From NCBI GenBank assembly GCA_011316305.1, contig SAUG01000012.1, positions 620,001 through 684,000 of the forward strand: a stretch of DNA of 64,000 bases, given 5' to 3'. Below the pieces are notes generated by a model. That model saw only the letters and a program-made list of their open reading frames with translations, did not search any database and had not been told where the DNA came from. This document shows, in pieces, positions 7,390 through 60,600 of the stretch. Each line of letters starts with the position of its first letter. Positions within the stretch are counted from its first letter, which is position 1. A program made the position numbers and the translations under genes. The DNA is from Rusavskia elegans (Eukaryota; Ascomycota; Lecanoromycetes; Teloschistales; Teloschistaceae).

Positions 7390-9365
7390 TTATTCTTCTT
7401 GCGAAAGTCCCAAATCTTCCTCGGCCGGCACGATGCGGGTCGTATTCGTGTGACCTTTGCCTCCGCGCCAGCCTTGCACGCAGACAACCAGGTCGCCCTT
7501 GGTGAGGATACCCAATTTGATAGCCTCCGATATGCCCCATTTGAGACGCTTGTCCACGTCCTGTTGCCAATCCGCATTCTTGAAATCGGGCTTCGCCTCG
7601 GGGAAAAGGAAAGGGTAGACTCCACGGTAAAGGTGCGAATACTACTGCATGTCAGTGCATCCACCTCGAAAGAGAAAGTGAAGACTGACTCGTGACGCTG
7701 TAGCATTACGTGTGACCATGATGATAGGGCAGATGGGTCGATACTTGGATAGCATCCTGGCGGACGAGCCACTGTACACATCAGCGGGCTGCTGGAGGCT
7801 CTCCGGTAGGTGAAGGAGTCCTACCTGGTGGTAAGAACCAGTATAGCGCCCGCATTGAGCTCCATACTGGAACTCACAGCTGATGTTGCCGTGGCTTCCA
7901 CCTGACTGATTGGCTTTTCAACAACAGCACGGAGATCGTTGAACAGGCTTATGTAGGGGATAGCGACTTCTGCGATTGCGCAAGTATCGTGCATCATCTG
8001 AACGGATTCCCTTGGATAGTTTCCCTTCGCAGTCTCTCCTGACAACATGACACAATCGGCACCATCGAGAACGGCGTTGCCGACATCGCTGACCTCTGCA
8101 CGGGTTGGGCGAGGATTATAGGTCATCGACTCGAGCATTTGAGTGGCGCAGATGACTGGTTTACCGGCGCGATTGCATTTGGCAATCATCATCTTCTGGG
8201 CGATGAAGACCTGAGCGGGAGGGATCTCAATCCCAAGGTCACCTCGTGCAACCATGACCCCGTCGGTTTCTTTCAAGATCTCGTCGAAATTGTTGACCCC
8301 TTGCTGATTCTCGATCTTGGCGATGATTTGGATCTCTTTCCCGTCTTCCCCGAGCACCTCTCGGATGGAGGTAATGTCACTACCACGACGAATAAAAGAT
8401 GCAAATACCATGTCCACGCGGTTCTTGACGCCGAACCGGAGATCGTTCTTGTCTTTCTCTGACAGAGCGGGGAGGTCGACATCGGTTTTGGGCAGGTTGA
8501 CTCCCTTCTTCGAGGATATCTTGCCGTTGTTCATACACTTGACGCGAAGAGTCTTATCGTCGACAATGTCTAGGACTTCGAAAGACAGGACTCCGTCATC
8601 CACGTAGATGGTACGGCCTTTCTCAATGACTTTGGTGATGTTCTTGTAGTCGACATACCTACCGTGCATCAGTGGACGTTCATGACTGACCCTGCGTTCG
8701 ACTCACATGTTCTTGTCATCGCAGGCAGTGGCATATTTATCGTCGGTCGTTATATTGAGCTCGGCACCTTGAGCGATAGGTATGTCTTCGTCTCCCTTGG
8801 TATTGCCAGTGCGGATCTCCGGCCCTTTCTGCGGGCTCGTCAGAGGGTCTCACCTCGTTCTGACGGAAGGACAACCGGGACGGCATAACATACAGTATCC
8901 AGAGCAATCGCCAAAGGGCGACCTAGATCCATTCGCTCTGCTTCCCTCGCATTATCGATAACCGATTGGTGGTACTAGGACAATGACGATGAGTATCGCT
9001 CTGGAAAGTGCGGGAGCACAGGCAGGGTCTGTTACCTCGTAAGCGCCGTGGGAAAAATTCATGCGGACAACGTTCAAGCCGGCTAAGAGCCGTCAACTCT
9101 TGAGTCTCGATATGGGTTACGCCCATGAGCTGTACCTTTCCGAAGCTGGTTGATTTTGGCAGCCGAATTGGTTTTCGGACCTGTGAGGGTGGTTAGGATC
9201 ATGAAAGGATTGGACATTTGGCAAGACGGTGCTCAGAGCCTTACCAATTGTGCAAATGATGGACGTTCGTCGATATTCTTTTTGCGGTTTGTACTCGGTG
9301 TTCAGGCCGGAGGTCCACTCGATGCGAGTTCTCCCGGAAGCCATATGGTCCAGTGAGTCTCCCAT
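7390..9365 (-). CDS. pkiA: Pyruvate kinase
   Basis: Pyruvate kinase makes pyruvate and ATP from phosphoenolpyruvate and ADP, the last step of glycolysis in the cytosol. I rebuilt eight exons on the minus strand: 9365-9245, 9180-9136, 9082-9036, 8974-8894, 8828-8707, 8658-7825, 7771-7690 and 7641-7390. All seven introns (48-65 bp) have GT..AG ends, most have a CTRAC-like branch site, and all phases agree, giving 1584 nt and 527 aa. That is the normal length of fungal enzymes. Diagnostic segments follow in order: [38 protein letters not shown], the active-site segment [37 protein letters not shown], and the C-terminal [19 protein letters not shown]. The start at 9365 ([11 protein letters not shown]) gives the usual short N-terminus before the [14 protein letters not shown] block; an in-frame upstream ATG at 9506 would add an unlikely hydrophobic leader. 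Nothing suggests inactivation. Confidence 0.97.
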
Positions 9366-27044: not shown

Positions 27045-29087
27045 CTAAATCAGAACAATGGTCTTCAATTCAGCATCCTCGACGAGCTCTACCCGACGAG
27101 CCGACTTCGAATAATGGATCGGAAGATCCTGATATGACTTGTAAGTACCTTCGAACAGACCGACCCGTCGATACGTGTGTATTGCAGGATCGATGCAGCG
27201 GAGAGCGAGTCCTTGTACCAACGTGCCGTCATATTTATTCTTTGTCGATATCAAGAGACAGAATACGGGTTGATGGGAAACTTCGTCCTGGACATCTGGG
27301 AAGATCCATTGATCTCCAGTGACATTTCTGTCAGAGAAATGGACGCTCAGCCTGTCTGACTGTAACGCTGATGATTCAGGAGGTGCAATTAATCCTGACA
27401 AGAGCGCACCACGAAGACGTATCCACCCAGAACTCAATTGGCCCATTGGATTTCCTGGGACTAGGGGAACTGTCATCGCTTCTTGTACGGCAATCAAGAT
27501 CCTTTCGATATTCGGTCGTCCAGGCATGATATGGCCGTCAAGTGCAGCCCAGCTCCAGGAAGGGGCACGATATGTTCCAGCTCTTGTGGAAGGAAGTCCA
27601 TTCGCTTGCTTACCATCCATCACCTTCCAGAGTAGACCCGATGATAAGGTCCCCTTCCATAATCCAGCCAAGTATTCGTCCTGGAGCGAAGCCTGCAATT
27701 TTTTTGCTAGACCCGACATGGCAGCGAGCTTGTCGGATGCCACAGTGAGTTCACCAGCAGTGTAGGCAGTGATAATCTTGTTCCACAGATGATATGTGTA
27801 AAGTTTTGGTGAGGACCGGCTGTCACCCATCGACTGCAACTCCTTGCCATCCACATCTGGATCAAGGCCTTTGTGCTTGCTTTGTGCGTTTTGTTGGGCA
27901 AGTGGCAAACCAGCAGGATATGACTCGCAAGCATCCAATTCATGACATTCCCATGCCAGCTGCGTTCGACCAAAATGGAGTACACAGGGTGCCAGTAGCC
28001 GCTCCTGTACCACCCACGCCCTCTTATTCAAGGGTGCTGAGGTGACAATGTGGTCCCAGAGCCCATATTCAATGACGCGAAAGACGGTACTTTGCAGACC
28101 TGTCCATCTTGGCTTCACGACGAGACCTTCAACGTCTGATGCGTTACGCTCTTGGAAGCATCCGTCATCGCTAGAGAAGTTTCCTGTCGCTGAAATACTA
28201 CAAAGCGCATTTGTATACACTTCACTCATCATTCCTGCCTCATACGCCCAGTCCTCGATTGAGTCCTGGATGATACACAGTGAGTCTATCCATATACACT
28301 TACAGCCCAATCTCTTAGTCATGACAACGGCGTCCTGGAATGTACGTGGCAGATCCGTAATATTGAACCCCCTTTCGAGGTCTGCAATGTTCGAATGTTT
28401 GAGCTTCAGAATTGATGCAATGCCCCAGCGGTGGCTGAGTGTCAAGTATGGGCCCGTGAGTATCTCTTTACTAGTGAGACATAAACGAAGGTTCTTATCC
28501 TCACCATCCGGTAAGATCTCCACAAGACGCGTAGGATAGTAAGGCTTCGACTGATGCTTGACATGGCATTTAGTATGATGCCCCAGACATTGCGCAAGCC
28601 AATCTTGAGCTAACGTCAAACACGTCTCCGAGGCGGTATGTGACGGAATTGTGTAGTGACTGGTGTACCTCAAGAAATCTGAAGAGAATCAGAAATTATG
28701 GCGTGTAGATTCAGCAAAGGGAGATTTGATAAACGAACCTTTAAAAGGTTCCACGATGAACATATTGTATCTATCCCTGTAATCCGTAGTAGTGACGGTA
28801 TCGTCGTTAAGCGAGAACCCCAGTATATAGAGATCTGCTGGGATATCCTTGTATCCAACAGCAGGGGTCTCTTTGCCGCGTTGAACAACATACATCACAG
28901 AAATGTTCTCTTGGGAAATGTCTCCAGTCGTGAGATCGGAGAACGAAGCCCATACTAGTCGACACATCTGACACCCAACTTCACGAGCTTGTCGAAGTTC
29001 TATTACAGTGCTGTGGTGTTTTATGCTCCCCAGTTCCAATGCTCCCTGGAAGATCTTGGTGCATGTCTGACACAACATTGACTCCAT
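27045..29087 (-). CDS. HET-domain (heterokaryon incompatibility) protein
   Basis: There are two exons, 29087-28739 and 28678-27045, with a 60-bp intron (GTTCGT ... TTCTGAT ... TTCAG). The phases agree and give 660 aa. The N-terminus carries paired cysteines (LCQTCTKIF and GCQMCRLV) typical of HET proteins. The HET domain runs from about residue 193: GPYLTLSHRWG, then ADLERGFNITDLPRTFQDAV, LGCKCIWIDSLCIIQDSIED, MMSEVYTNALCSISATG, and later RAWVVQERLLAPCVLHFG. HET proteins trigger cell death when genetically different hyphae fuse. The C-terminal half (LPSTRAGTYRAPSWSWAALDG onward) is the usual poorly conserved tail. No stop or frameshift is seen, although the gene lies next to a RIP-mutated repeat block. 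Confidence 0.95.
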
Positions 29088-29420
29088 ACCTCAGAGAGGA
29101 ACCGATTGCGGGCAGATTGCTTCAAATCACAACGATTTGTTCCGTTCCACAGACGTGAAAGCGTGGCTTATGATGGTCTATCACTTATCAATATTCTCTT
29201 GCAAATAGCTTCAAAAGATACTGAAACATAAGCTAACGGTTTCTACGCCTCAATATAAGGTAAGGAATTGTCCTTTATGCCTTGTTCGATCATGTGATAC
29301 ACAGTGAAAGTCCAAGACTGTGATATTTTCATCCGTGAACTTCGGAACGATCGTGTTGATCCGAATGCCAAGCCGACGGGTCCCTCGCCGGCTTTTACTC
29401 TACGTTAGGTTTAGGGTGAC
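29088..29420. other. HET promoter and boundary to AT-rich DNA
   Basis: This is the upstream region of the HET gene. Composition is normal up to about 29410 and then changes within a few tens of bases to AT-rich sequence. Confidence 0.6.
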
Positions 29421-31688
29421 CGTTTCTTAATATCGCGTAAAATAGAAGAATATCGAGAACTTTCGCCTAGAATCGATTCGATATTATATACTAGCTCTTT
29501 TCTAATATTAGATTATTTCGATATATAAACGGATATTGAATATAATTCGTTAAATTAATTTTGAAATAAATATTATTAATATTTTTTTTCATTGAACGAT
29601 TTTTTATAAAAATAAATTTATTATAATATATTAATTCGCTAGTAATAATTTAAAGCTACGTTTTAACGAATATTTTTTTTACTATCGATTTTTTATTATT
29701 TTAAATAAAAAGTTTTCGATATAAAAAAAGACCTTTTAATATATATAACTAGTTAAGTTTATTTAATTCAATAAAATAGATATATATTTTAATCTATTTA
29801 TAAAAATAAATTTTATATTTAAATTTCTATTTTTTTTAAAATTTTTATCCGGAATTTAAATAATTTAATCTAATTATTATATTTATATTTTATATTATCG
29901 ATCTAGAAATATTACTTTCTAGTTTTTTTTTCTAAATTTATCCACTATTTAATTTACTCTTTTATTCTATTTATTTTTTGGAAAATATTTATCGATATCG
30001 ATATATATTTTATAAATCTTTTTAAATTTATTATAGATTTTAATAAATAGTTTAATTACTAAATTTTTATTATATAAAGCCGAATGATATAGAATTTTCG
30101 ATTTTATTTATTAAATATATTATATTACGGCTATCTATTTGAAAAAGACTAATTTTTTAAATAATTCTATTAATATTCGCAGCGAAATATATTATAGTTT
30201 TTAATAGTATATTATCGTTTTCTATAAATATAAACTTATTATTTATATTAGTATCAGCGATTATATTTTTCGATTTTTTATATTTTAAATTGATAAATCC
30301 AGTAAAATCGTAAAATTTTAACTCGATTTGACGATTTGTTTATAGTTGTAAATCCGTCTAATCGCTTTTATAAATATTAAAAATCGTTAAATTAACTGTC
30401 GAATCGGATTTCGAATCCGAATTAAAAAAACCGATTCGATCTAAATCGGTTCCGACTTTTCTAGATATTAAATCGAATCCAATCGGATTTTTTAAAAATT
30501 CGACCCGATTTAGTTTCGGGTCGAATCTAGAAATCCGGATTTAATTTATTAAAATCGTTAAAACCTTTTTTTTTATATTATAAAATCTATTTTTTTATTA
30601 ATAATATAGGAATATATCGAAGTAGAATATTTATCTAAATCTACTATTGCTAGATATAGATAACTAATTAAAAAATTTAATAATTTTCTTTATATTTTTA
30701 TCGTTTTCGGTTTTCGTTTCCGTTTTTTTTTCTATATTTTTATCTTTATCTTTATTTTTATTTTAATAAAAGTTTATACTTTTAGCTAACTTTTTATTAT
30801 CTTTAAATTTAATATTATTTTATTTAGCCGAATATCTTTCTACTATTTAGTTTTTATTATTAATTTCGACGATATTATTAATATTTTCGTTTTTCTTTTT
30901 ATACGGAGATTCGATAACTATATAAATGGTATTACTACTATAGTTAAATTTTTTAATAAATTTCGACTATTTTTATAGAAATTTTAGTATTTAGATAATT
31001 TTAAATTCTTTAAAGTTATTATAATAGATTATTTATTATTAGATAAAATTAACGATTAGAATTATATATTTAATTAAAGTTATTCTATTTATATCTTTCG
31101 TATCTATAGTAGATTTAAAGAAATATTAGAAATAATTAATTATAAATTAAATAATTTAAATATATTATTTTAATATATTATTTAATTCTGTTTCTACTTT
31201 ATCTAATTAATAAATATTATTTCTTTTGAATTTTTTCGCGAGTTTTATTACGGAATTTAGTTATATAATATAATATTATATGTAAATTAATATTTAGTAT
31301 CATCTAAAATATTCTATTGTATTATTAAACAGTATTTTACTAATTCTATAATCCGTTTCTTCGTTTCTGACGTTTTATTTTAAAAGAATCTTTGTATTTA
31401 AATCTATAGTTTTCTATATATCGGTTTTTTTTGATTCTAAAAACGTTTATATATAGTAATATAATCTTTACTTTATTTTTTATAGAATATTTATTTAGAT
31501 TTCGACTATTTTCTACCGTATTTATAATTTGTAATCGATTTAGATATTATAGATAGTAACTTTAATTTAGATATAATAGAATACTAGATAGTAGTTTAAA
31601 CAATATAGTAAAGTAATATATTTAATATTTTAAAAAATCTATATAAAATAGTAGTTAAAATAGAATAGAAATATAAAATAGAATATAT
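29420..31688. repeat. Unassigned RIP-mutated sequence
   Basis: This AT-rich DNA contains no element boundaries that I could match. Between about 30390 and 30540 there are several short inverted repeats around CGGATT/AATCCG and GACCCG/CGGGTC, all richer in CG than their surroundings. It is probably one or more old transposon fragments. Confidence 0.5.
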
Positions 31689-32499: not shown

Positions 32500-35400
32500 A
32501 TTAGATAAAATCTTTCCTTCGCTAGTATATAGACGATAATAAAAATAATAAATATATTTTCGCCTAATTTATAAAATTTAAAAAAGCTATTTATAAAATC
32601 TTCGGAGTTTTAAACGAAATTTAAACTATTATATATTTTATTTAATATTTTTAGTAAAAGAATATAGTATCTAACTACGCTATACGATTTAAAAAATAGA
32701 TACTACTAATAGAATAAAATAATAACGCCTTATACGTAGTATTTAGATAAAAATTTAAAGAGCGAATAAAGAATAAATTTATATATAATAGTCGAGTATA
32801 TAATATTCTAGATAATCTAATTAAAATATCTATTGATTTTAATAATAAACTATATAAATAAAATATAGAAAAACGCTATAATAGTAGACTATAAGATAAT
32901 ATAGAATATTATTCGGGATAGCCCTATAGAAAATAATATCTAGATTAAAAATAGTCCGAAAATAGCTATTTTAAATCGATACTAATAGATTTAGACTCTA
33001 TATAATAGTAATATAAAAGGAAAAACCCTAGAAATAGTAAAAGAAATAAAAATTCTAAGACGTATAATAACTATAATAAACTAGGCTATTTTATAAAAAA
33101 ATATCGATTAAATAAAATATAATAACGATAGTTTAACGCTATACTAAAAAAACCTAAAAACTAGTAAAAAATAATTTTAAAAGACGACGATAGTAGTTTT
33201 AAACTCTAGAAAACTAATTTAGATAAAAAATTTATATTTATAGAAAACGATAAAATATTATAGGAAACTACGATAAATAATATTTGGCTGCGAATATTAA
33301 TAGAATCTACTAGAAGAAAAGTCGCTTTTAAATAAATAATTATAATAATAGAAATTATTAAACTAGTATACCTTTAGGCCTTTTATAATAAGGAATTCGT
33401 AAAAAAAGGATTTATAATAATCTATAAAAGATTTAAAAACGTTGATAAAATATATATTAGCGACGAATATCTATAAAACGATAAATAGGATTAAAAAATA
33501 AATAATATTATCGATATATTAGAAGAAAAACTAGGAAATAACGTTTTTAAAAATAAAATTATATCTAAATCGATATTATAATAAAAAAATATAATAATTG
33601 GAAATTAATACGTATTATTTAATTAGACCGCCTGCTATAATAATAACTATAGAATCTATAAATCGGAAAAAGAAGGAACCGAATAATATTTATTAAAATT
33701 ATACCGATACGCTTTTATAATATCTATTAAAGTCGGAATTTATAATATTTATAACTATTTTGGATATATTATATATAGGAGATATAAATATTAGAAGGAA
33801 TAGTAGGAAAGAAATAAATACTTTAATTAGAAATTCTATAGATATATTTTATAAGTAGATTACGAAAATAAAAAATATAAAAATATAAGTAATAATTTGA
33901 AAAAAAAAATAAGATTTTATAGTAATAGGTATACTACGAGCGTATAATTTTATAATTCGGAAAAAATAATTAAATTTAACTAGTTATATATATATATTCG
34001 GCCTGGGTGGCGCAGTAGCAACGCTGCGTGACTTGAAGGCCCGGCGGATCCAGCGCTCTTCGGAATTAACGGAATTAATCCGACGGGTCGGGGATTCGAA
34101 TCCCTCGAAGATTAACCTAATATTTAAATTTTTTCTATTAACTTTAGTCGATTTTATAGAATTTAAAAAATATAGAAAGATTATATAGTAGATCGTCTCG
34201 GTCTAGCCCGATCGATCAAATTGAAATTAAGTTAATTAAAGTTAAATAGATTACGATTTCCCTCTAGATTTTAGTCCAAATCTAATTCCTTCGGGAATTT
34301 TTAATTGAATTTTCGGTAAAGATTCGAATCCAAATAATTGCGTAATCTGATCGATTAGTACTTTTAGTACTAATTCGTAAAAGATAATCAAAAAATCCGA
34401 ATGATTAATCGAATATATATATATATATATATATTCGAAGTTAAAATGATTATTAAAACTAATAACGGACTATAAAAGATTAAAATATTTATTAATTTAG
34501 ATATAACCGGAAATTTCATATTAAAGGATTTAATTAAAAAGAAAAAATTCCTTCGAATTAAAAAAAAGAATCTATATAATTTAATATCTATTAATAGAAA
34601 TAAAATACTAAATAGAAATAAAAAGATTATAAAAGAAATAATATCGCTTTAAATAATAATTAATTAGTATTAGAAAGAATTTTAGTTTAATATTATTCGA
34701 ATAGCTAGCTATAAAATTAGATTTAGATTTCTTTAGTTAAAAGATTATAATCTAGTAATATATTAGGAAAAAAAAATATTTAGCTTCGAATAATACTTTT
34801 ATATAGAAAATATCTAGCCTATATCGAAATAGTAATTTCGGGTAAATAAAAAATAGAATATAAAGCGCGAATTTATAGTTTCGAAAAAAAATAATTAAAA
34901 ATTATTTAAATCCGATTTATTAGATACCGGTAGAAATTAACTAGATTAATAAAATAGAAATAGAAAAAAAAATTATAAACTTTTTAAAAATTCTATACTA
35001 TCTAATAAAAAGTTAATAGAAATCTATTAAAAAGAATTTTAGATAAATATAAAAATTAGATAAATTTATTTTAAAAAAAAGTAACTATAAAAGTATTATT
35101 TAAATATTAATTATAAGGTTATAAAATTAAATTTAAATTAGATAAATAATTTACGTTTAAACCTATTTATCTATTATTAATAATAGAGTTCGAAATATTC
35201 TATAAATATCTAGACGAAAATATAAAAAAGAGATTTATTAAAAAATTTTAATTATCGGCAGAATATCCGATTTTTTTATATTTAAAAAGAACGTAATATT
35301 CCGTCTATATATCGATTACCAGAAACTAAATAATATTATAATTAAAAACCGATATCTACTATTAAATATTAACGAATTTTAAAATAAATTTACTAAAATA

Positions 35401-37450
35401 TAATATTTTACAAAACTCGACTTTTAGAAAGTATATAATTTTATATAAATAAAAGCCGGAAAAAATTAAAAAATAACTTTTCGAATATAATATAGTTATT
35501 ATAAATATATAGTAATATTTTTCAGGTTTATAATTATCCCGATAATCTATTAAAATATAATTAATAATATATTTAGAAAATATTAAAATATATTTATTAT
35601 TATTTACTTTAATAATATTTTAGTTTTTTTTAAAATATTCGAAAAATATAAATAGTACGTTAGTAAAGTTTTTAAATATTTAATAAAAAGGATTTATATT
35701 TTAAACTAAAAAGATATAAATTCTATAAAAAAATATTAACTTTCCAGAATATATTATAGAACGAAATAGATTATATATCGATTCTAGTAAACTAAAAGCT
35801 ATTATAAAATAAAAAATACTAATAAATATTAATAAAATCTAGAAGTTTTTTAGATTTATAAATTATAATCGGAAATTTATAAAAAACTATTCTAAAAAAA
35901 CTTTCGCTTTAATAATTTTAATAAAAGATACTACTAAATAGTATTAGAATAAAGGAAAATAATAAATATTTAAAGATTTTAAAAAAATATATATAAAAGA
36001 CCTAGTATTAAAAATCTTTAATTTATAAAAACTATTAAAAATAGAAATAGATTTATTAGATCTAGCTATAAATATATATCTTCTATAATAATATAATAGT
36101 AGATAGTATCTAGTAATATATATATTAAAATAATTATTACTAGTGGAATAGAATTATAATATCTATAATAAAAAACTACTAGCTATAGTAGCTATATTAG
36201 AATAATCGAGAATATATATCGAAAAATTACTAGAATTAATAATTTTTATAGATTATAAAAATCTACTATATTTTATAATAATAAAATAATTTAATAAAAA
36301 ATAAATATAATAGTCTAAATTCTTCGGTTAATATAAATTCAAAATATACTATATTTTAGATAAAAAAAATAAAAAAAATAGATATTTTTAATCGAAGAAA
36401 TAATTATATAAAAATAAAAAAAGTTTTTAGTAATAGTATTTTTAAAATTAATAAAAATAGATTACTATTAATAAATTAATATAAAATAAATACGATACTA
36501 TATATATTTAGAAATAACTAAAAATAGTTTTCTATTAAAAAAAGAAAACTATAAATATTAGATAATCAAATCGACAAATATATTTAAGAATACTAAAATA
36601 GAATACTATAAAAATATCTAGATATAATAAAAATAATATAACTTTTATAATAGTATTATTAGTTTTCTAATATAAAGTAATATATTAAAATATATATTAA
36701 AAAATATTTTATTTATTCGTAAAATAAATATACTATATATACTCGTTATAGAAATATCTAATATTAGAAACTACCGGATTTACTATAGAAGAAAGTTACT
36801 TTAGACTTTATTATTAAATTTCTAAAATCGAAAAATCCGATAATAAATATAGAATACGATTTAATATTTAATATAATAGATAGATTTACTATTCTAGATT
36901 ATTTATTCCGATATTACAGACTACTAGAAGTTTTAATAAATAATAGAAATAAACTTTTTACTTCGAACTATTAGAAAATCTTTATTTCTTTAATTAATAT
37001 AAAATTAAAAATATTAATAGTCTTCTATCCGATAATAGATAGATAGATAGAATATATTAATTAGATTTTAGAATAGTATCTAAAATATTATATTAATAAT
37101 ATTTAAAATAATTCGATTTTATTTTTACTAATAGTTTAATTAATATTTAATATAAAGAAATTAAATATAATAAAAAAAATATCGTTTTATACTAATAATT
37201 GGAGGAATCTAAATTTATTTAAACGACCACTACTATATATATTAGCGGAATTAGCTATTTAAAAAGTCGATATTTCGAAAAAAATCTATAGAAATATCTT
37301 TAAAATATAGAAATACTCGGGTAGTTACTAAAATAAAAAACGAAAAATAGTATTTTAGTTAAAGAAAAGAAATAAGATATATCTTTTTATAAATAACTTT
37401 AAATAAAAAATTTAACTATATTAAAGTCGGACTATTTTTAATTAAAAAGA
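32500..37450 (+). pseudogene. gag-pol remnant of element A
   Basis: Frames are broken by many stops. A CCHC-type gag zinc knuckle is recognisable although its Cys codons now read Tyr (33064-33107). Reverse transcriptase is recognisable at 35.2-35.7 kb, with both catalytic Asp codons changed to Asn (YFNN). Position and order give Ty3/gypsy. Protein function is lost. Confidence 0.8.
34000..34421 (+). mobile_element. SINE-like element, copy 1
   Basis: A tRNA-like head (GGCCTGGGTGGCGCAGTAGC, A-box; GGGATTCGAATCCC, B-box region near 34092-34105) is followed by a roughly 300-bp body shared with copies 2-4 and ending ATGATTAATCG plus a TA-rich tail. The flanking duplication is about 16 bp: TATATATATATATTCG at 33985-34000 and 34422-34437. 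Element B lacks the insertion at the equivalent site (about 59625-59645), giving an empty allele. Confidence 0.88.
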
Positions 37451-37461
37451 TTAAAGGATTT

Positions 37462-38080
37462 ATCAGCGAATACTAAAATGGATTTTTAAATTAGACCGGC
37501 TAACAGCCATTTCAATCTAAATAATCCAAAAATCTAAATAATCTAAAAATCTAAAAAATAGATTTTCGATAGATTAGAACTCTAATAGTATCTATAGTAC
37601 GAATATCTATTTAGTAAACAGCCTAAAAGAGAATCTATATATAAGTTAAAAATAAACCTATATAATCTAACTTAAAAATAAGATTTAACGGTCGCCGCTA
37701 AAAGCGGGAATAACGGAAATCGAATATCTATTTAATAAACTACGCTAGACCTAATCTAATTAGATTCTAGTAAAGAAATCTAATATTTCCGATCTAGACG
37801 AAGCAAGTCTAGCGGTATATATAGGCGTATATAGACCTATTAACTAAAAAGGACTTAAATAAATTTAAAATCGAATCTCTAAATCTTTTCAGCCGGTTTT
37901 AGCCGTTTTAGCCGCTTAGCCGTTTCAGCTGTCTTAGCCGCGCAGCTACGCCGCTTCGGGTATACCCGAAACCGGCTAATAAGCCGCTTATAAGCCGCTT
38001 TTAGCTATACCGACTGAGAACCGGCTGAGACGGCTAAAATAGCTGAAACCGATTTTAAGCCGGTTTTAGAAAATGCTGAT
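37462..38080. mobile_element. 619-bp insertion with imperfect inverted ends and GC-rich foldbacks
   Basis: This sequence is present in element A and absent from the same place in element B (near 62530). It begins ATCAGCGAATACTAAAATGG, and the reverse complement of its end begins ATCAGCATTTTCTAAAACCG, so the ends are imperfect inverted repeats. The right half is rich in AGCCG/CGGCT motifs on both strands and contains the perfect 16-bp palindrome TTCGGGTATACCCGAA at 37955-37970. It has no coding capacity. A non-autonomous DNA transposon (MITE-like or foldback) is most likely. I could not define the target duplication. Confidence 0.65.
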
Positions 38081-38879
38081 ATTTTAAAACTTCGAATTTA
38101 ATTTATTTAAAGATGTTAAAGTATATCCGGTATTCTATATATTTCTTTTAAAACTAGTTAACTCCGGCACGCTATTATAATAGATATTTAATTTCGAAAT
38201 ATAGAAAAAAAATATCTTTATAGTTAAAAAAATCCTATAATAAAAAGGTTAGAATTATTTAATTAAATAGAAAGGTTAGTCTACTTTAGAAAATATTTAG
38301 AAATCTAAAAAATATTTAGTAAACTACTAGAAAACTTTATAGCAGTTTTATTAAAAAGAGCTAAAAAAGTTATCGACTAGCTAAAATCGCTAGATAGAAT
38401 AATCTATTCGGAAGTTATATCGATAAAAGAATTTAAATTAATAGACGAAAATAAATCTATAGGATTCTCTTTTTATTTTAATATTTCGATATTTTATAGC
38501 TTTCTATCAATTATAATATACTGCTTTTTTTTAATATAATCTAATTAACGAAGTAGATATTACTACTTTATATATACTTTATATAATTCCTTTTTTAACT
38601 TTTTATATTTATTTTTGAAACGATATTAACGCGTAGTATCTAGTAGAATAAAAATATAAAAATAAATTTATCCTATATAACTAATATACCTTTCGGAACT
38701 TTTATTAATATAATAGAATTTCTTTTATAAAAAATAATTCCGATAAAAATATATAATATACCGATATCTATTAATAGAACTTTTTTATAATAATTATTTA
38801 TCGATAATCTTTTTCTTTTATTTATAAAAAAGAAGAACGGAAGGTTTTTTAGAATAAAAAATTTAAAGAAAAAACCTAG

Positions 38880-39370
38880 TATTATAAATACGAGCGACGT
38901 AATTTAGATAATATAATAGTATTTAATATATTACCCAATTTTCTATTACGCCTCGATAGATAGAAATATATAGGATAGTCTAAATATTAATACTAAAAAG
39001 TATTTTAGTAGTTTTAGTAAATAAATATTATAAATACTTTAATTTTAGTAGTTTTAGTAGATAAATACTATAAGTATCTTGATTTTAGTAGTATTAGTAA
39101 ATATATACTCTGAAATAGAGCTATTTTAGTTATTTTAGTTAATAAATAATCTAAATAGTAGAAGATTTTATTATTTATATAAATTTCGAACTCGACGCCT
39201 TTATAGTTTATATTTATTTTATTAGTTATTACTATATACTATTCTAGTCATTAAATTGATTTATTTTTATATTAATTTAAATAATTACTCGTTATATCTT
39301 CGTTTACAGATATACTAATAAATTCAACCAATCCGTAAAAATACCAGATCTTCCAGATAATTCTATAATA
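38880..39370 (+). repeat. 3' LTR of element A
   Basis: This is a 491-bp copy of the 5' LTR, more heavily RIP-mutated near its start. It is followed directly by the target duplication TAGAA. Confidence 0.93.
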
Positions 39371-39375
39371 TAGAA

Positions 39376-40204
39376 GTTTATAGAAATATATAAACTCGTC
39401 TATTTTAGCCGAAATCCAGCCGACGATTATATTAATTAATTAAATTTTATTTTCGATCTTTTTTTTATAATTAAATAATTATTACTATTAATATCTAATA
39501 TAATATATACCGTATTCCATTATTTATCGTTTTATTTATCGTAGTATATAAACGTAATTATAGTATATATTAATCGGATTAATAATATATTCAAATAATA
39601 TAATAAACTATATTAAAACGTTAAGAGGTATTCTAATATATAAAAATATTACGAAACCGATCTATAGAAATTTAAAAAAGATAAAAAGTAATAGAATCAA
39701 ATAAAAAAAGAAATCCGCTAGTATAATAGTAAAAGTAATACTTTAAAATAATCTTTTCTAAATAGTCTAGCTAATATTATATCGATATAATTATAAATTT
39801 AAAATTAATATTAAAATTTTCCAAAATATCCGTCGCTATTAAAAAGGTTTCGATAATCTAATTTTAAAAATATTATTTATTAGATTATATCGCGAAATCT
39901 TTGAAAATATTACTATAGAAATAATTAATTCGGCTAGAGTTATTAAAATATAGAATACGACGTTAACGATATTATCAAATTCTATAAAAGTATATATTAT
40001 TATTTATTTAATAAAAAAATATATTATTTTATTATATTACTATTTATATACGAATATCTTTTTATTATTTTAATATTGATTTAATAGTAATTTACGTTAA
40101 ACGAATTACTATTTAAAATAAAAAATTTTAGTTTATTAAAAATCTAATAAAAAATTTAGAAATATAATTAAAAGATAATAAATTAATTAATAATCGAATA
40201 TTAT
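39376..40204. repeat. Unassigned RIP-mutated sequence between elements A and E
   Basis: This AT-rich sequence shows no LTR or coding motif that I can place. It probably belongs to an older element into which A, E or both inserted. Confidence 0.4.
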
Positions 40205-40209
40205 ATAAT

Positions 40210-40450
40210 TGTTAAAATGGATATATTTCCAAAACAGTATACGATTATAGACCAGACGAGAAATATATAATAGAACTAATTTTCATTCTAGAAAAACTGA
40301 GATATAATCTAATAATAAAAGAAAAGAAAAAAGTAGAAAAAAATCGAAATTCGACGCGCTAGCGACGCTTTAGCGACTAGGCGGCAAGCTTTATTTCTAA
40401 ACGTTTTAATTATATTTCTAGAATTTATATAACGCGTCTACTATTTTATA
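40210..40450 (-). repeat. Left LTR of element E
   Basis: This 241-bp sequence starts TGTTAAAATGGATATATTTC and contains CGCTAGCGACG...TAGCGACTA near 40360-40380. It is intact and serves as the empty-site reference for the B insertion in the right LTR (TCTAA followed by TAATAAAAG here). Confidence 0.88.
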
Positions 40451-40513
40451 ATAACTTGTTTTTAAATAATACTGTCTTTAATATTATATAATATTTATTT
40501 ATATAATTATAGT

Positions 40514-40943
40514 GGCCTGGTGGCGCAGTGGTAACACTGCGTGACCTGGAGGCCCAACGGATCCGCGCTCTATCTCGGAGTTAGCGGAGTTAATCCAGCG
40601 GGTCGAGGGTTCGAATCCTTCGAAGGCTAATCTAATACTTGAGTTTTTTCTATCGACTAAGTCGATTTTTATAGAATTTAAAATATAGAGAACCTAGATA
40701 GTAGATCGTCTCGGCCTAGCTCGATCGATTTGATTTAATTAAGTTAATTAATAAAGTTAAATAGATTACGGTTTCCCTCTGGATTTTAGTCCAGATCTAG
40801 CTTTTTCGGGAATTCTTAATTCGAGTTCTCGATAAAATACTTGAATACTAAATAATTACGTAATCTGATCGGTTTAACGCCTCTAGCGTTAGAATCGTAA
40901 AAGACTAAAATTAAAATTCGAATGATTAATCGCATAAATTTTA
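40514..40943 (+). mobile_element. SINE-like element, copy 2
   Basis: The head reads GGCCTGGTGGCGCAGTGGTA and the B-box region GAGGGTTCGAATCCTTCG. The body is shared with the other copies and ends ATGATTAATCGCATAAATTT. A perfect 14-bp target duplication, TATATAATTATAGT, is found at 40500-40513 and 40944-40957. It is inserted 63 bp inside the left LTR boundary of element E. Confidence 0.92.
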
Positions 40944-40957
40944 TATATAATTATAGT

Positions 40958-43869
40958 ATTTATTAGATAAATCTATTACCTTTATAGTTAACTATAAAAA
41001 TTAAAAAGGATAAAAAAATTATTTTTTAGCTATTATTATATTTAGTTTCCTTTTATATATAATTATACTTTAGTTATATAAATATATACTAGAATAAATC
41101 TAAAAAGAAAAGATATTACTATAAATCGAATATAGATTTTCTAATTAATAAAATATAATCGTAATTACGATTAGAAATATTAACTACTATACTATAATAC
41201 TATTAAATAAACGATATAATATTATTTTAGCTAATATTTTCGAAAGAATATTTGATATTAATAGATATAGATAAAGTTTACGTATTTATATATATATAGC
41301 TTATAAATAATATTAGATAAAAGTTCTAATAAATATAATTAAACCCGAATCTAATATAAATATTTAAAGATTCTAAATAGTAAATAAATATTCGGAAAGA
41401 TACGGTTCCGACGTTTTAATAATAATATAATAGTACTTTATTTAATAGAAATTCTGATTTTTTATATTTTATTTATTTAAATAGATTTTCGCTATTTATA
41501 TAACTTTTAAATATTTATATATATAGATTCATCTTCCCTATTATATTTCAGATATTTATATTTTATAACTGGCGATTATAATAATATAAATTATTTATAT
41601 TTTTATCTTCGAATATTTAAAAAACTATTTTACTAATATTTATTTTAAATATAAAAAAAAATAGAAAAAATCTATTTAATTATAAAATAGTATAATCTTT
41701 TTTAATATATTAGTTTAAAGCTAACTATAATAGATACTTTATTTTTTCGATTCGAATATAAAGTAAATAATAAATATTTACCGGTTTATAGTTTAAAATA
41801 AAAAAAAAACTATTTTTTAATAACTATAAATTTATAAAAAAACTTATTTTAAATATTATAAATATTATTAAATAAATTTCTATTTTTAATACGATATTAT
41901 AAAATCTTATATAGATATTTATAACTTTTAACTATTTCGCGATAATATTAGATTCTATCTTTAAACGTTTAAATATATATAAATACGCTAACTAAAATCT
42001 ATATTAAAAAAATAAAACTATATAAACTAAATTAACTATTTTAAAATATAAATCTTATAAATATAAAATATAGCGGGCCGCTATTATTTTTTTTTTTTTT
42101 TTATAAAATTTCGGCTTTTTTTTATATTTATTATTTCTATTTATCTTTTATTATAAAAATTCTATCCCGTCGGTAGTATATAAACTTTTATCTTTTAAAA
42201 TAGATATTACTAGTATTTTAGCGGTAGTATAAATATTTAATATAATATCCCGTTTTACTACTATATTATATTTATTTTTCGGTCTAAAACCTTTAGATAT
42301 AATTTAATAATCTTTTATATAAAATAGCTAATTACTAATATATTACTTTAAAATCGGATAATATTCTATAAATTATAGTATTTTCTATTATAGAAAAATA
42401 TAAATTCTATCCGTTTTCGGCTAGTACTATTTATTAGATTTTAGATAATAGACTAGATAAATCTATTTCGATATATATATCGATTTTAGAATATCTAATA
42501 CCGATAATTAAATAATCTATATCTAGTATCGAAATTTCTTCGCGTAAATTAATATTTCTTTTATTTCTTTAGTTATTTCCGAAGCCGATACGACCTTTTA
42601 ATAGACTATTTTATATATTTGATAACTATAATAATTAAAAGTTTTATCGAATGACCTTTTTATATACTATTAAATAGAAGAATAATATATATTTATTTCC
42701 GATAGTTCTATTAGAATTTCTATTAACTTTTTTATCTATTATTCTATTATAGTTTCTTTTAACTTTCTCGCGTATAATTTCGAAAGCGCCGAAAATATCT
42801 GGATTTTAATTTCTAGAAGTTAAAACTACCGGTACTCTAGCTTTTTAAATAATTTTTTTACTAAACAATCTAATATTTTTTAATACTTTTAATTCTATTT
42901 ATAAATTTCCGTAAACTTTTTTTTAATAGTATTAAAATAGATTTTTTCTCCGGCGTTATTTCCTATATCTATTATAAAATAAAAAAATTGTCTAAAATAG
43001 AAATATATAGTAAAGTTAGATTAATTATATTAATATAAATATATAAAAACTAGAATATATAAATTATATAATAGTAAATAAAATCTTTAGTATTATATAT
43101 TCTATAAAATAATTTTAAAAATTTTATTATCTATAAATCTATTTCCAGATATATATATTATATATATATTCTATAAACGTTTAACGTCTATAATTATAGT
43201 TTATTTTTATTAAATTCTATTTTTTTTATAGTTTTTTATTAGGGGATTATTCTAATTATATATTTTAATAAATTTTTAAATATTTTTAAAATCATTTTAT
43301 AGTTACTAGGAATTATATTCCTTTAGCTAACTAGTTTATTTTATTAGATATTTAGCTTTTAGCTTCTCGTCTTTTTTAAATTTTATAAATCTTTTATCTA
43401 AAATAGCTTCTATCTTTTATTTCTTTTTATTATTAATAAAATCCAGTAATAAATACTTTAATAGTTCGCTATTCTAGCGGTAGTAGAACTTTTCTAATAA
43501 AAATATATTAAAGGTATTATAGATTTTTAATCTAATTAAAAAAACTATTAGTAAATTTAAAAATAATCTTTTTCGATTATTTAAACTTTAGATTCTTTAT
43601 AGATAATAATATTAAATTATTAACTTTATAGTCTATTAGTTAATATTTTTATAATAATATTTAATCTAATTTATTTAAAATTTATTTCAGTTTATATATA
43701 TCGATTTATATATTTTTTATAAATTTACGACTTTTTTTTTTACTACTAGTATTTTCGTATTTACTATTTTCTTTTCTATAGCGTTATCTTTAATATCTTC
43801 GAATATTATATCTAGGTTATAATCTATAAACGCTTCGAAAAGGAATATTTTTAGAATATTATATTTACT
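40958..43869 (-). pseudogene. Element E internal region, distal to integrase
   Basis: This is RIP-mutated sequence of element E between the SINE copies. I cannot identify a domain. It may hold the 3' part of pol, an extra ORF, or an unrecognised insertion. Confidence 0.35.
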
Positions 43870-43881
43870 ATTATTATTAAT

Positions 43882-44326
43882 GACCTGGGTGGCGCAAATG
43901 GCCTGGGTGGCGCAGTGGCAACGCTGCGTGACCTGGAGGCCCGGCGGATCCAGCGCTCTTCGGAGTTAACGGAGTTAATCCGATAGGTCGGGGGTTCGAA
44001 TCCCTCGAAGGCCAATTCTAATACTTGAGTTTTTTCTATCGATAAAGTCGGTTTTATATAGAGTTTTTATACAGAGAGCTTATATAGTAGATTATCTTAG
44101 TTTAAAATAGCTGATTCGATCGAAGAAAATTAAATTAATTAAAGTTAAATAGATTACGATTTCCCTCTAGGTTTTAGTCCAAATCTAGTTCCTTCGGAAA
44201 TCTTTAATTCGAATTTTCGGTAAAATACTTGAGTACCAAATAATTACGTAATCTGATCGGTTTAACGCCTCTAGCGGTAGAATCGGGAAAGACTAAAATC
44301 AAAATCCGAATGATTAATCGCATATA
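43882..44326 (+). mobile_element. SINE-like element, copy 3 (duplicated 5' start)
   Basis: This is the least mutated copy. The head reads GGCCTGGGTGGCGCAGTGGC and the B-box region GGGGGTTCGAATCCCTCG; the acceptor-like ends GGCCT and AGGCCA pair. An extra 18-bp partial head (GACCTGGGTGGCGCAAAT) precedes it. The target duplication ATTATTATTAAT is at 43870-43881 and 44327-44338 and encloses the extra piece, so that piece was part of the inserted copy. Confidence 0.92.
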
Positions 44327-44338
44327 ATTATTATTAAT

Positions 44339-47300
44339 AAATTTAGCTAATAATTGAAATTTAATCTAATTTTCTATTTTTTATAAATATATATTTTTAG
44401 ATAATATTCTAGTTATTAATTCTATTATTTAGTTTATCTATCTATTTAGAAATAGATTATAGTATTTAAAAAACGTTTAATCTTTAGATAATAGTAGACT
44501 TCCGACTAGAATTTATTTATAAATAGCGAATTTCTATCGCTAATAGTTCTATTAGAAATAGATCCTTTATATTAAAGTTTATTAATAATAAATTCTATAA
44601 AATTCTTCGTATTAATTACTTTATAATAAGAGATATACCTCGCTATTTTAGTAAATCGATTAACGGCTATAAATACTAAATCTACTACGTTTCGAGAATA
44701 TTAAATAGATAGTAATCTAGTAATAAAATCTATCGCTATTTCTTTTTATAACTATATAGAATATAGAAGATTTTAAAGCTTTTTATATAGTTTATATCTA
44801 TAGATTTTAGTTTATTAATAGATATTAGATATTTCTATATATTTTCTAATATATTTAGATAGGTTCGGCTAGCTATAACTATATCGAATAAGTAATAATA
44901 TTTACTAATATCTAAAATATCTAACTATAAAATGATTATAGTATTTTACTAGAAACTTTATATATAGTATTTTATCTTCGGAAATATATAAGAATTTTTT
45001 ATAAAAAAGAAAACTAGTTCTTATTTCTATATTCTATAGTTCGGCTTTTTTTTTAATTTATATTAAATAGTCTATAAACGTTTCTAAATATCGGCGTTTC
45101 GACTTTAAAACTATATAAATATATCGCGTATACTAGAAATTACTTTACTATAAACTATTTTATTAATAGCAGTCTTTTATATTATTTAATATAAAATTTC
45201 TAGCCTATAGTATATATTTTAAATAATAGAGTTTATTCCGTTATTATATTTTTTATCGAAAATAGTTATTACTAATCTATTACTACTATATCGGCGGGCT
45301 ATTATATCCGAAAATAATTTCAATATATAAAATATATCGCGTCCTTTAATAAATAATAAAAGATTAATTCTATTATTTTTAGAATTTTTAGATTTTATAA
45401 AAGATTTTCTAGACTCTCTAATTATACGTCTATATAAAACGTAATTAATTCGAATTCTTTATATAGTAAATAGTTCGCTACTAGATTTATAGCTAATAAA
45501 ATTGAATTTCTATTAAAATATAAATAATATTATTTAGATTTAAAAATTAATATCTTTATAATCCGACCTTTTAAAAGACGAATTAGCTAGATAAGTCTTT
45601 TCTAAATAATAGAAAATATCAAAATCTATAATAGCTATTTTACTAATCTAGTAATATTATTAAATATTAAATTTTTTAACTTTTATAAAACTCTAAAGAT
45701 TATTATAATCTATCTAGACTTTTACTATATATTTCGCGCCTTTAAAATAATATTTCTATTATTTGAAAATTTTAATAATAATAAAAAGTTCGGTATTATA
45801 TATTTTATAGTTATATTTAATAGAAATTATATTCTTCGACTAGAATATAACTAGACGCTAGCGACTAATTTTTTAGATTAAAATATAATCCTAGTTAACT
45901 CGATTCAATAATATTAGTTTCGATATAGATTTCTTTTTTTAAATTAAAGTACTATAATATTCCGACGGTATTAAAAGTATCTTTTAGTTTTTTAAAAGTC
46001 TTTTAAATTCCGATAATTTAATAAAACGATTCCGACTTCTTTTCGGCTATATTTTCTATAAATAAATTTATTAGAAATATTATAATACGAGAATATTAGT
46101 AAATAAAACGCCGGTAAAAATTTATAATTTTTAAAAAAATCTATATTTCCCGGTAAATTTTCGGAACCGGCTATTTTTTAATAGTTACTATTTATTTTAA
46201 ATCTATCGAAATACTTTTAGTAGATATAATAAAATCTAAAAACTCTATACTTTTAATATTAAAAATATATTTCTTAAAATTAAAATATAGCTGTATATTA
46301 TCAAGTATTCGAGAGATTAATCTAATATATTTCTAGTATTTTTTTTCCGATTTAAAAAAAATTAGAATATTATTAAAGTAGACTATATAGTAAATTTTAA
46401 CTAATTTTTCTAAAACTCTATTAATATAGATTTAAAACGTTATAGATATATTATTAAAATCGAAAAGTATAATAAAATATTTAAAATATCTATATTTTAT
46501 ACGAAATACGTCTTTCTATTTATTATTTTTTTTAAACCTAAATTAATAGTATATATCTTTAATATTATATTTAGAAAAGTACTTTATTTCTAATAATCGA
46601 TCTAAGATTTTAGAAATAAAAAATAAAAGATAACGGTTTTTAATTATTATTTTATTATAATCTCTTTAATCGATATATATACGAAAACTACTATCTTTTT
46701 TTAATATAAAAAAAATTAAAACTTTTATAAAAGACGTTAAATAATAGATCTAGTCTTTTTATAGAATATTATCTAGATAATTTTATAATTTATTAAATTT
46801 ATATTTAGATAGACGATAAATCAGGCTATATAGCGGATTTTATCTATCTAATTTAATTATATAATCTATTATTCTAAACGGTAGTAAAAAATATATTAAA
46901 TATATATTATAAACTTCGATTTCTTTATATATAGATTCCGGAATCGACAGTTCGGGCTTTTATATATTTTCGTCTTTATTTTTGTCGACGTCGTTAGTTT
47001 CCGTTTATATAGTAGTATCGTTATTAGATCTTGTATATACGGCGGTAATCGATATTATATTTATTACTATATATTTCTCGGCCTATAATATATAAATAAA
47101 GACTATCGGTAAATTAATACTAAGGTAAATTAATTGTTTTATTTCTATCTAGTTATTTTATATCGTTTTATTATAAATAGAAAATCGTTATTATTTTAAT
47201 TTTAGGTCTATAATTATATATATCTAATATAATACTGATATATCTAAAAAAAAATACTATATTTATTAGTCGTATCTAAAATATAATATTATAGTATATA

Positions 47301-47789
47301 TATTTTCTAACGGTTTTAACCATCTATTATTATTTAATTTAAATTATATATTTTATAATAGATAGCTGACTAATTTCTAATCTATTAAAAATAGAATCTT
47401 TCGGTTTTTTAAATAAATTCTAAATTATATTAAATAACTAAAGATTAAAAAATAACGTTAATTTAAAAATCTAGATCAAGAAATATTTTAGTTCAACTAT
47501 ACCCTTTTACTAGTAATTCGATAAATACTTTTATTAGAAAATCGTTTTTTACTTTAATTTATTTATTCTAGACTATTATTAAAGCTATAACTAGCCTTTT
47601 TTTTAACTAATTAATATTACCGGAATTATCATTTATTATATTAATAGTAGACTTTTTGAAAAATCTATTACTATTACTATAAAAGTTATTAGAGTTCCGA
47701 TTATTTTAATTTTAGTTCTAGTTTTAAAGATAACATTTAGACTAATAATCTATACTATTATAAGTAAAATATTTACTAAATTTATTATT
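44339..47789 (-). pseudogene. pol remnant of element E (integrase, RNase H, RT)
   Basis: The minus-strand reading shows a reverse transcriptase remnant at about 46.3-46.9 kb with YFNN replacing the catalytic YxDD. The lower coordinates should hold RNase H and then integrase by the Ty3/gypsy order. All frames are full of stops. Confidence 0.65.
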
Positions 47790-47804
47790 CTATTTATATT
47801 TTCT

Positions 47805-48232
47805 TATATATACGATTAATTATTCGGATTTTTTGATTTTAGTCTTTTACGAAATCAACGCTAATGACGCTAATTCGATCAGATTACGTAATTATTTAGT
47901 ATTCAAGTATTTTACTAAAAACTCGAATTAAAGACTCCCGAAGGAGCTAGATCTAGACTAAAACCCAGAGGGAAACCGTAATCTATTTAATATTAATTAA
48001 CTTAATTTCCTTCGATTAATCGAGTTAGGCCGAGACGATCTATTATCTAGTCTTTCTATATTTTTAAAACTCTATAAAAATCGACTAGGATCGATAGAAA
48101 AAACTTAAATATTAGGTTAGTTTTCGAAGGATTCGAACCTTCGACCCGTCGGATTAATTCCGTTAACTCCGAAGAGCGCTGGATCCGCCGGGCCTCCAGG
48201 TTACGCAGCGTTACTACTGCGCCACCCAGGCC
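47805..48232 (-). mobile_element. SINE-like element, copy 4 (inverted)
   Basis: On the minus strand the head starts at 48232 (GGCCTGGGTGGCGCAGTAGT) and the body ends near 47811 with ATTAATCGTATA. A perfect 15-bp target duplication, CTATTTATATTTTCT, is found at 47790-47804 and 48233-48247. It lies in the opposite orientation to the other three copies. Confidence 0.92.
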
Positions 48233-48247
48233 CTATTTATATTTTCT

Positions 48248-57671: not shown

Positions 57672-60600
57672 CTTTAAATATCTTTAGAATATCTATCCCA
57701 GATTAATATTAAATTTCTACTCTAAATAACTCTAACTATATAGCTAAATAGTCCGAATCTAAAGGAAAAAATATCTAAATAAAAAATAATAGTAAAAATA
57801 AAAATATTTCTTCTATTAATTAACGTCTTTATAGTATTAAAATTAATAAGTCTAATAAATACTATAGAAGTTATAATAAACTAGAAAACTAGTTTATATA
57901 ATTAGATATATACTTCGTATTCTATTTTATATCTAAAGAAAAAAAAATCCTTTTTACTATATTCTATTTTCGAAGACGAATCTAGTATTAGATAAAACCT
58001 TTCCTTTATTAGTATATAGATAACGACGAAAATAATAAATATATTTTCGCGTAATTTATAAAGTTTAAAAAAGCTATTTATAAAATCTTTAAAATTTTAA
58101 ATAAAATCTAAACTATTAAATACTTAATTTAATATCTTTAGTAAAAAAATATAGTATTTAATTATACCGTATAATTTAAAAAATAGATTCTATTAATAGA
58201 ATTGAATAATAACGTTCTATAAATAATATTTAGATAAAGATTTAAAAAGCGAATAAAAAACGAATTTATATACGATAATCGAATATATAATACTCTAGAT
58301 AATCTAATTAAAATATCTATCGACTTCGATAATAAACTATATATATAAAATATAAAATAACGTTATAATAATAGACTATTAAATAATATAGGACGTTCCT
58401 CGAAATAGCTCTATAGAAAACAATATCTAAATAAAAAATAGTTAGAAAATAGTTATTTTAAATTAATATTATTAAAACTGAATTCTTTATAATAGTAACG
58501 TAAAAGAAAAAACCTTAGAGATAGTAAAAGGAATAAAAATTCTAAAACGTATTATAACTATAGTAAACCAGGCTATTTTATAAAAAAATATCGATTAAAT
58601 AAAATATAACGACGATAGCTTAACGCTATATTAAAAAAATCTAAAAACTAATAAAAAATAATTTTAAAAAACGACGATAGTAGTTTTAAACTCTAAAAAG
58701 CTAGTTTAAATGAAGAATTTATATTTATAGATTATAATAAAATACTATAGAAAGCTATAATAAATAATATTTTTCTATAAATATTAATAGAATTAACTAG
58801 AAGGAAAACCGTTTCTAGATAGTTAATTATAATAGAAGACGTTCGCCTAGTATACCTTCAGGTCCTTTATAATAAAAAACTAGTAAAAGAAAGATTTATA
58901 GTAATTTATAAATAATTTAAAAACGTTTATAAAATATATATTAATAATAAATATATAAAAAATAATAAATAGAATTAAAAAGTAAATAATATCGTCGATA
59001 TATTAGAAAAAAAACTAGAAAGTAACGCTTCTAAAGATAAAATTAAATCTAAACTGATATTATAACGGAAAAACGTAATAATAGGAAATCAATACGTACT
59101 ATTTAGTTAGATCGCCTGCTATAATAACTGCAGGGTCTACGAATCAGAAAAAGGAAAAACCGGGTAGTATTTATCAGAACTACGCCGACGCGCTTCTATA
59201 ACGTCTATTAAAATCGGAAATTATAATATTTATAACTATTTTGGATATATTATATATAGCAGATACGAATATTAAAAATAATAGTAAAAAAAGAATAAAT
59301 TTTTTAATTAGAAATTCTATAAATATATTTCGTAAATAGATTACGAAAATAGAAAATATAAAAACGTAAATAATAATTCGAGAAAAAATAAAATTTTATA
59401 ATAATAGATATATTATAAATATATAACTTTAATAGACTGACCGTTTTATCGAATTTCGAATCTAAATTCGTATTCCGGATTCGAATTTCTAATTATATTA
59501 GGAAGGAGGCTAACTTTAACTAGTAATTTAGATACAATAGCTACGTTTATCGCGAAATCGGGTCGCCACTTTGGTTCGAAGTAGCCAGTCTAAACTTTAC
59601 GGCTCGAAAAAAATAACTAAATATAGCTAGCTATATATATATATTCGAAATTAAAATATTTATCGAAACTAATAACGGATTATAGAAGATTAAAGTATTT
59701 ATCGATTTAGATATAACCGGAAATTTTGTATTAAAGGATTTAGCTAAAAAGAAAAAGTTCCTTTAAATTAAAAAAAAGGATTAATATAATTTAATAGTTA
59801 TTAATAGAAATAAAACATCGAGTAGAAATAGAAAGATTCTAGAAAAAATAATACTATTTTAAATAATAATTAATTAGTACTAAAAGAAATTTTAGTTCGA
59901 TTTTATTCGAATAGCTAGTTATAAAATCGTATTTAAAATTCTTTTAATTAAAAGATTATAATCTAATAATAGACTAGGAAAAAAGAATATTTAACTTTAA
60001 ACGATATTTTAATATAGAAAGTATCTAGTTTATACTAAAATAGTAATTTTAGATAAATAAAAAATAGAATATAAAACGCGAATTTATAGTTTCGAAAAAA
60101 AATAACTAAAAACTATTTAGATCCGATTTATTAGATACCGATATAGATTAACTAAATTAATAAAATATAAATAGAAAAAATAATTATAAATCTTTTAAAA
60201 ATTCTATACTATCTAATAAAAAGTTAATAGAAAGTCTATTAGAATAGTAGCTAGATAAATATAAAAATTAGATAAATTTATTTCGAAAAGAAATAACTAT
60301 AAAAATACTATTTAAATATTAACTATAGAATTATAAAATTAGATTTAAATTAAATAAATAATCTATATTCAAACCTATCTATCTATTATCTATAATAGAA
60401 CTTGAAATATTCTATAAATACCTGGACGAAAATTTAAAGAAGAGATTTATTAAAAAATCTTAATTACTAATAGGATATCCGATTCTTTTTATATTTAAAA
60501 AAAAAATAGAATATTCCGTTTATATATTAATTACCGAAAGCTAAACGATATTATAATTAAAAATCGATATCTATTATTAAATATTAGCGAATTTTAGAAT

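Follow-up and report, generated by a model that had tools for sequence, protein, structure and literature searches.

A dispersed, probably tRNA-related SINE family in DNA of the lichen-forming fungus Rusavskia elegans

The stretch of Rusavskia elegans DNA analysed here (64,000 nucleotides, positions 620,001 to 684,000 of contig SAUG01000012.1, hereafter the window) contains four copies of a repeated element of about 424 bp. This element very probably represents a dispersed, tRNA-related family of short interspersed nuclear elements (SINEs), for which classification as a new SINE family is most fitting. Its SINE anatomy, its dispersal and its independent target duplications are strongly supported. 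The host is a lichen-forming fungus that belongs to the Teloschistaceae or stands close to them.

A preliminary description of this DNA, made from the sequence alone, had placed the four copies within 14 kb, in both orientations and each with a target duplication of its own. Their positions were confirmed by sequence reading and BLAST, which also indicate that all four are full length; three lie on the plus strand and one on the minus strand, and each has its own exact direct repeat on both sides (12, 14 or 15 bp). Compared with copy 3, copies 1, 2 and 4 show 80.6-83.7% identity over 425-427 of 427 bp (BLAST). Counts out of 60 given below refer to a set of 60 distinct copies, the four window copies included, whose family-model match begins at most 12 positions from the start and ends at most 9 from the end and which have adequate flanks; they form a non-random sample, found through sequence motifs. 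The features in the window are the following.

34000..34421, plus strand: SINE copy 1, full-length match; SINE-free paralogue at window 59629-59659
33985..33999 (5') and 34422..34436 (3'), unstranded: target-site duplication of copy 1, 15 bp, exact repeat
40514..40943, plus strand: SINE copy 2, full-length match; SINE-free site in locus L053
40500..40513 (5') and 40944..40957 (3'), unstranded: target-site duplication of copy 2, 14 bp, exact repeat
43900..44326, plus strand: SINE copy 3, from sequence and BLAST; SINE-free site in locus L038
43870..43881 (5') and 44327..44338 (3'), unstranded: target-site duplication of copy 3, 12 bp, exact repeat
43882..43899, plus strand: 18-bp partial second SINE 5' end, within the copy 3 target duplication and not in the L038 empty site
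43908..43918, plus strand: A box of copy 3, TGGCGCAGTGG, from sequence; consensus A-box form in 38/60 copies
43993..44003, plus strand: B box of copy 3, GGTTCGAATCC, from sequence; GGTTCGANTC in 41/60 copies
44030..44035, plus strand: T6 tract after the head of copy 3, likely RNA polymerase III (pol III) terminator; T6 or longer in 57/60 copies
44258..44285, plus strand: 3' tail stem-loop of copy 3, from pairing and two-sided changes over 32 copies
47805..48232, minus strand: SINE copy 4, from sequence reading, BLAST and family-model match
47790..47804 (SINE 3' end) and 48233..48247 (SINE 5' end), unstranded: target-site duplication of copy 4, 15 bp, exact repeat

The A box TGGCGCAGTGG and the B box GGTTCGAATCC are undamaged in copies 2 and 3, while copy 1 has one G-to-A change in each box and copy 4 a G-to-A change in the A box. 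The ends of copy 3 (GGCCT/AGGCC) are complementary. The insert of this copy comprises the 427-bp SINE and 18 bp (43882-43899) resembling the SINE 5' start, a duplicate that perhaps arose by a template jump during reverse transcription. The flanks of the window copies resemble other repeats; the earlier statement that the copies sit in two different host retroelements is checked only to this extent.

The genome (44.2 Mb, 217 contigs) was searched with motifs tolerant of repeat-induced point mutation (RIP), each accompanied by a control motif. Many dispersed copies were found, as the preliminary description had expected: the body motif gave 263 matches (control 0), the tail motif 252 (control 2) and the head motif 417 (control 0). 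The exact A-box motif had 53 matches (control 3), and among 30 loci taken by it two (L009 and L012) have no SINE similarity. Of the 100 head matches that come first in genome order, 58 are accompanied by a body or tail match at the expected distance, whereas 42 are not; on the contigs of these heads, 8 of 58 bodies lack a head match. At least one of the 42 unpaired heads (C19:73227, in L081) is part of a diverged copy that still has its body and tail, and a second family sharing the SINE head may account for some of the others. Most copies reach the 5' end, as 26 of the first 30 of the 252 tail-motif loci in genome order begin at consensus position 11 or earlier and four do not. Two 5' truncated copies (L084 and L093) are each flanked by an exact direct repeat of about 9 bp, as judged by eye, and in L083 one SINE is nested within another. 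The body motif had no match in viral contigs and seven in prokaryote contigs, where no additional similarity to the SINE was seen. The eight closest copy pairs differ by only 0.2-1.5% in transversions, so that some of the copies may be rather young.

Target duplications were called at a direct-repeat score of at least 11, with 3540 mismatched flank pairs as the null, and were found in 47 of the 60 full-length copies against 3.5% of the mismatched pairs. Their lengths are variable (11-22 bp, with 14 and 15 commonest and 33 of 47 at 13-15 bp), a distribution of the kind that the preliminary description had looked for and one that supports a SINE. The same lengths bear on the idea that the copies are solo long terminal repeats (LTRs) of a Helenus-type terminal-repeat retrotransposon in miniature (TRIM) bearing a tRNA. 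The LTRs of fungal Helenus elements do contain tRNA-like sequence in the published description, but their duplications measure 5 bp (PMC10886601), and we regard this origin as very improbable.

Empty sites were sought for copies 1, 2 and 3 by joining both flanks with one repeat kept and aligning them to SINE-free paralogues. The joined flanks align unbroken across the junction to window 59629-59659, L053 and L038, respectively, and no clean empty site was obtained with L004 (copy 1), L081 (copy 2) or L024 (copy 3). Most of the copies have target duplications of their own, against the outcome (copies in one repeat family only, with no independent duplications) which the preliminary description had named as contrary to its claim. 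It is extremely improbable that the copies are passengers of a larger retroelement without mobility of their own. Such passengers would fit the fact that all 60 copies lie in AT-rich DNA (1-kb flanks of 15-34% GC, median 22%, against a median of 37% for the SINEs) and that the window copies are bordered by sequence resembling other repeats, but the independent target duplications, the SINE-free paralogues at three tested sites and the SINE within a SINE at L083 argue against them.

The insertion sites also have a sequence preference, which was counted without any repeat calling. TATA or ATAT starts at offset -14 from the SINE in 25/60 copies, the mean being 4-5/60 per offset at -64 to -36, and starts somewhere in -18 to -12 in 42/60 copies against 17-25/60 in four control stretches. 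Most copies terminate in (TA)n rather than poly(A), with L037 as an exception that has an A run. A TATA about 14 bp upstream, at the inferred first nick, fits such 3' ends: UA repeats at the end of the RNA might base-pair with the TATA of a nicked target. The 3' end also has a stem-loop that appears to be maintained by paired changes. In an alignment of 32 copies hand-picked from the 60, 98.2% of cells are paired (shuffled mean 93.6%) and 19 two-sided changes occur (4.5 in shuffles), a statistic which kinship among copies can raise above such shuffles without any structure; for slid versions of the stem-loop the paired share never exceeds 45% of cells. Two-sided changes from CG to UA could come from RIP on both arms, whereas those from UA to AU (three copies at one pair, one copy at the adjacent pair) could not.

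Several results weigh against a tRNA-related SINE mobilised by a long interspersed nuclear element (LINE), and they concern the duplications, the head, its transcription and the LINE itself. Thirteen of the 60 copies fall below the duplication threshold, window copy 3 among them, although the exact duplication of this copy was missed because it is hidden by the 18-bp extension. The description of the head as tRNA-like is borne out by its pol III boxes (a consensus-form A box in 38 and the B box GGTTCGANTC in 41 of the copies) and its paired ends, but the tRNA models give a mixed picture. The spacing of the boxes is mostly 85-88 bp in the 45 copies with both located, which is long for a tRNA gene. 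In the proposed fold with a tRNA covariance model, the Rfam tRNA model gave only 14.8 and 15.3 bits (E 3.5 and 2.4) for two copies, short of its gathering score of 29; the match in copy 3 spans only part of the head. ARAGORN at default settings called no tRNA in the 64-kb window; with introns allowed it called two SINE heads (L016 and L021) among L001-L100 and the window, and it calls the copy 3 head only under relaxed scoring. Thirty tRNA matches are listed in the genome. Covariation in the cloverleaf (acceptor, D and T arms) is not above shuffles, though the head folds well.

The preliminary description did not mention the TTTTTT that stands directly 3' of the head in 57 of the 60 copies, about 130 nt into the element. 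This tract is likely a pol III terminator, and with it a pol III RNA should stop near nucleotide 135-140, although the element measures about 424. The body of 59 copies contains another run of T5 or longer, and T4 or longer occurs between positions 120 and 400 in all 60. A strong internal pol III terminator is usually absent from tRNA-derived SINEs (SINE2), a feature from which the present family departs by its T6 or longer tract. The longest run of columns at least 93% conserved is TTTTTTCTAT; T/A columns are better preserved generally because RIP spares them, so that this conservation alone is no proof of selection. In budding yeast, paused pol III is fully released at T6, while weaker tracts are assisted by RNA hairpins (PMC9278858). 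The full-length templates would be either rare pol III read-through RNAs or products of RNA polymerase II (pol II).

A possible alternative, although on the unlikely side, is that the element is a pol II-transcribed retroposon of the Eg-R1 type, the head of which no longer drives full-length RNA and the templates of which are supplied by pol II, either reading through from outside or starting at a promoter of its own type. The T6 and T5 tracts inside nearly all 60 copies agree with this, and runs of T5 or longer are commoner than runs of A5 or longer (2.4 against 1.0 per copy), which shows that T tracts are not avoided; the authors who described Eg-R1 in Blumeria used the same poly(T) argument (PMC6022598). 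However, A and B boxes of consensus form are kept in the majority of our copies, whereas Eg-R1 is without boxes, and apart from L037 the usual end is (TA)n and not poly(A).

Target duplications, TATA targeting and a few 5' truncated copies suggest mobilisation by a LINE, as first proposed, but tail-motif and protein searches of the genome turned up no LINE that shares the SINE tail. The tail-only patterns yielded nothing that stood clearly above their controls. The exact 16-base tail motif has 42 genome matches, none of them near the LINE-like locus C209:917-921 kb, and tails with non-SINE letters upstream gave one match (control 0) and five matches (control 13). By estimate, each tail-only pattern recovers just some 22-36% of genuine independent tails, and a LINE family of very few members could therefore go unnoticed. 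A longer shared tail would also evade these patterns, yet 28 of the first 30 tail loci have about 200 bp or more of SINE.

PF14529 had two genome matches. One is an 847-aa open frame at C209, in which RVT_1 matches too; the other, at C81, is a broken piece. The RVT_1 match at C209:918969-919742 is the only one longer than 485 nt among the 150 scored of 422 candidates; the other scored matches are shorter and all have stops except C16:10110-10424, a short match in a 457-aa open frame. By match length only, we read the short matches as Gypsy-like. The C-terminal part at C209 sits in further, separate frames, and a search with it returned only itself (two candidates scored) and no Pfam match; the locus is called LINE-like because of the PF14529 and RVT_1 matches upstream of this piece. 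The SINE tail is absent from 1.8 kb running from the C-terminal part into downstream DNA. LINEs decayed by RIP could escape the protein search, and the partner may have been lost, destroyed by RIP or overlooked, or its recognition may be confined to the stem-loop or to the TA end.

The window has two parts, one GC-rich (51% GC) and one AT-rich (about 20%) from about 28-30 kb on. The border at 28000-30000 is sharp, with gene-bearing DNA of about 50% GC giving way to repeat DNA of about 19% GC. In another lichen fungus, Cladonia rangiformis, such a two-part pattern is attributed to RIP in a report (PMC12542154) the main text of which does not contain the word SINE. Pooled dinucleotide indices are RIP-like for the SINEs and their flanks and not for the genic part of the window. 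Over the 60 copies, in columns at least 80% conserved, C-to-T changes reach 14% at CpA against 7-10% in other contexts, which suggests a modest RIP context bias in the SINEs. A first count (39% C-to-T at CpA in 33 copies) was discarded, as its RIP-aware consensus was partly circular.

These observations can be joined in a proposed mechanism for the SINE. The (UA)n end of the RNA would pair with nicked TATA DNA and prime target-primed reverse transcription, which would be performed by a LINE enzyme recognising the 3' stem-loop, and RIP-altered DNA rich in TATA would offer plentiful landing sites. We add, tentatively and as an unlikely extension, that the head may be a self-contained pol III gene, with A box, B box, T6 and a structured transcript, giving a separate RNA of about 135-140 nt, with the 424-nt template made by another route, and that the family may have been spread by the enzyme of a LINE since lost or mutated past recognition, landing in TATA-rich DNA generated by RIP. 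If so, this would be a SINE adapted to the mutational graveyard of its genome.

SINE flanks also contain a second dispersed repeat, about 0.9-1 kb long (L084:1986-3017, L057:58-1012, L085:2019-2921, L051:1927-2848 and others). Its copies share the 3' end CAAATTAACTAAATA or a close variant, direct repeats of 11-14 bp were seen by eye at four of them, and it looks like another non-LTR retroposon. SINE copies at L030:757-1518 and L044:1346-1870 are broken up by pieces of this repeat, while at L096 and L045 SINEs oriented opposite to the second repeat adjoin its TA-repeat stretch, as if this were a landing site. A relative not affected by RIP lies directly downstream of the LINE-like frames at C209 (L100, G000:C209:916900-917699; RIP-aware score of up to 129 against at most 42 in shuffles) and may be the 3' region of that LINE; no clear relative of the coding piece L099 turned up in the sampled DNA (90 against 70). 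The second repeat as a partner of the SINE through a common tail was dropped, because 29% of random windows from the sampled DNA match equally well.

In the genic part of the window, the product of a glycosyltransferase-like open reading frame (5025-6713) shows 93% identity to an unnamed protein; the values are 84-85% for Xanthoria mediterranea and X. steineri and 82% for Calogaya. This one protein places the host near Xanthoria and Calogaya, and hence in the Teloschistaceae or close to them. An open reading frame at 7821-8669 resembles, by eye, a fragment of pyruvate kinase.

The internal terminator and the missing LINE lift this new SINE family above the routine. Two questions are made testable, namely how a SINE can persist when its promoter is followed by a strong terminator, and how a retroposon keeps its mobility where RIP destroys the long elements supplying its enzymes. 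In addition, the hundreds of insertions could be used for studies of RIP and of phylogeny in lichen fungi.

The preliminary description called fungal SINEs poorly described, which is fair for lichen fungi, although several fungal SINEs have been published (PMC5063351). No description of a SINE from a lichen fungus was found among the open-access matches listed for fungal, ascomycete and lichen SINEs and for Xanthoria, Teloschistales and Lecanoromycetes retroelements, Repbase and most subscription papers lying outside this scope, and SINEs are reported absent from the genome of the lichen Solorina crocea (PMC12387558). Among known systems, Eg-R1 is likewise a fungal SINE-like retroposon with an internal poly(T) that would truncate a pol III RNA, but it is polyadenylated and lacks A and B boxes, whereas the Rusavskia SINE has boxes and mostly a (TA)n end (PMC6022598). 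Helenus TRIMs also bring tRNA-like sequence into a non-autonomous fungal retroelement, which is however an LTR element with 5-bp target duplications instead of 11-22 bp (PMC10886601). AfuSINE2 of Aspergillus fumigatus shares the tRNA-related 5' region and the short target duplications; the 3' end of AfuSINE2-1a resembles the LINE I-1_AF, whereas no such LINE match was found for the Rusavskia SINE (PMC5063351). The SINEs in print further include MgSINE of Magnaporthe (472 bp, about 100 copies) and SINE2-1_BG of Blumeria, both called tRNA-derived, and Foxy of Fusarium with about 160 copies (PMC5063351). These three are likewise dispersed fungal SINEs and, compared by their descriptions, the Rusavskia SINE is set apart from them by its 263-417 motif matches, its T6 tract and an apparently covarying stem-loop before (TA)n.

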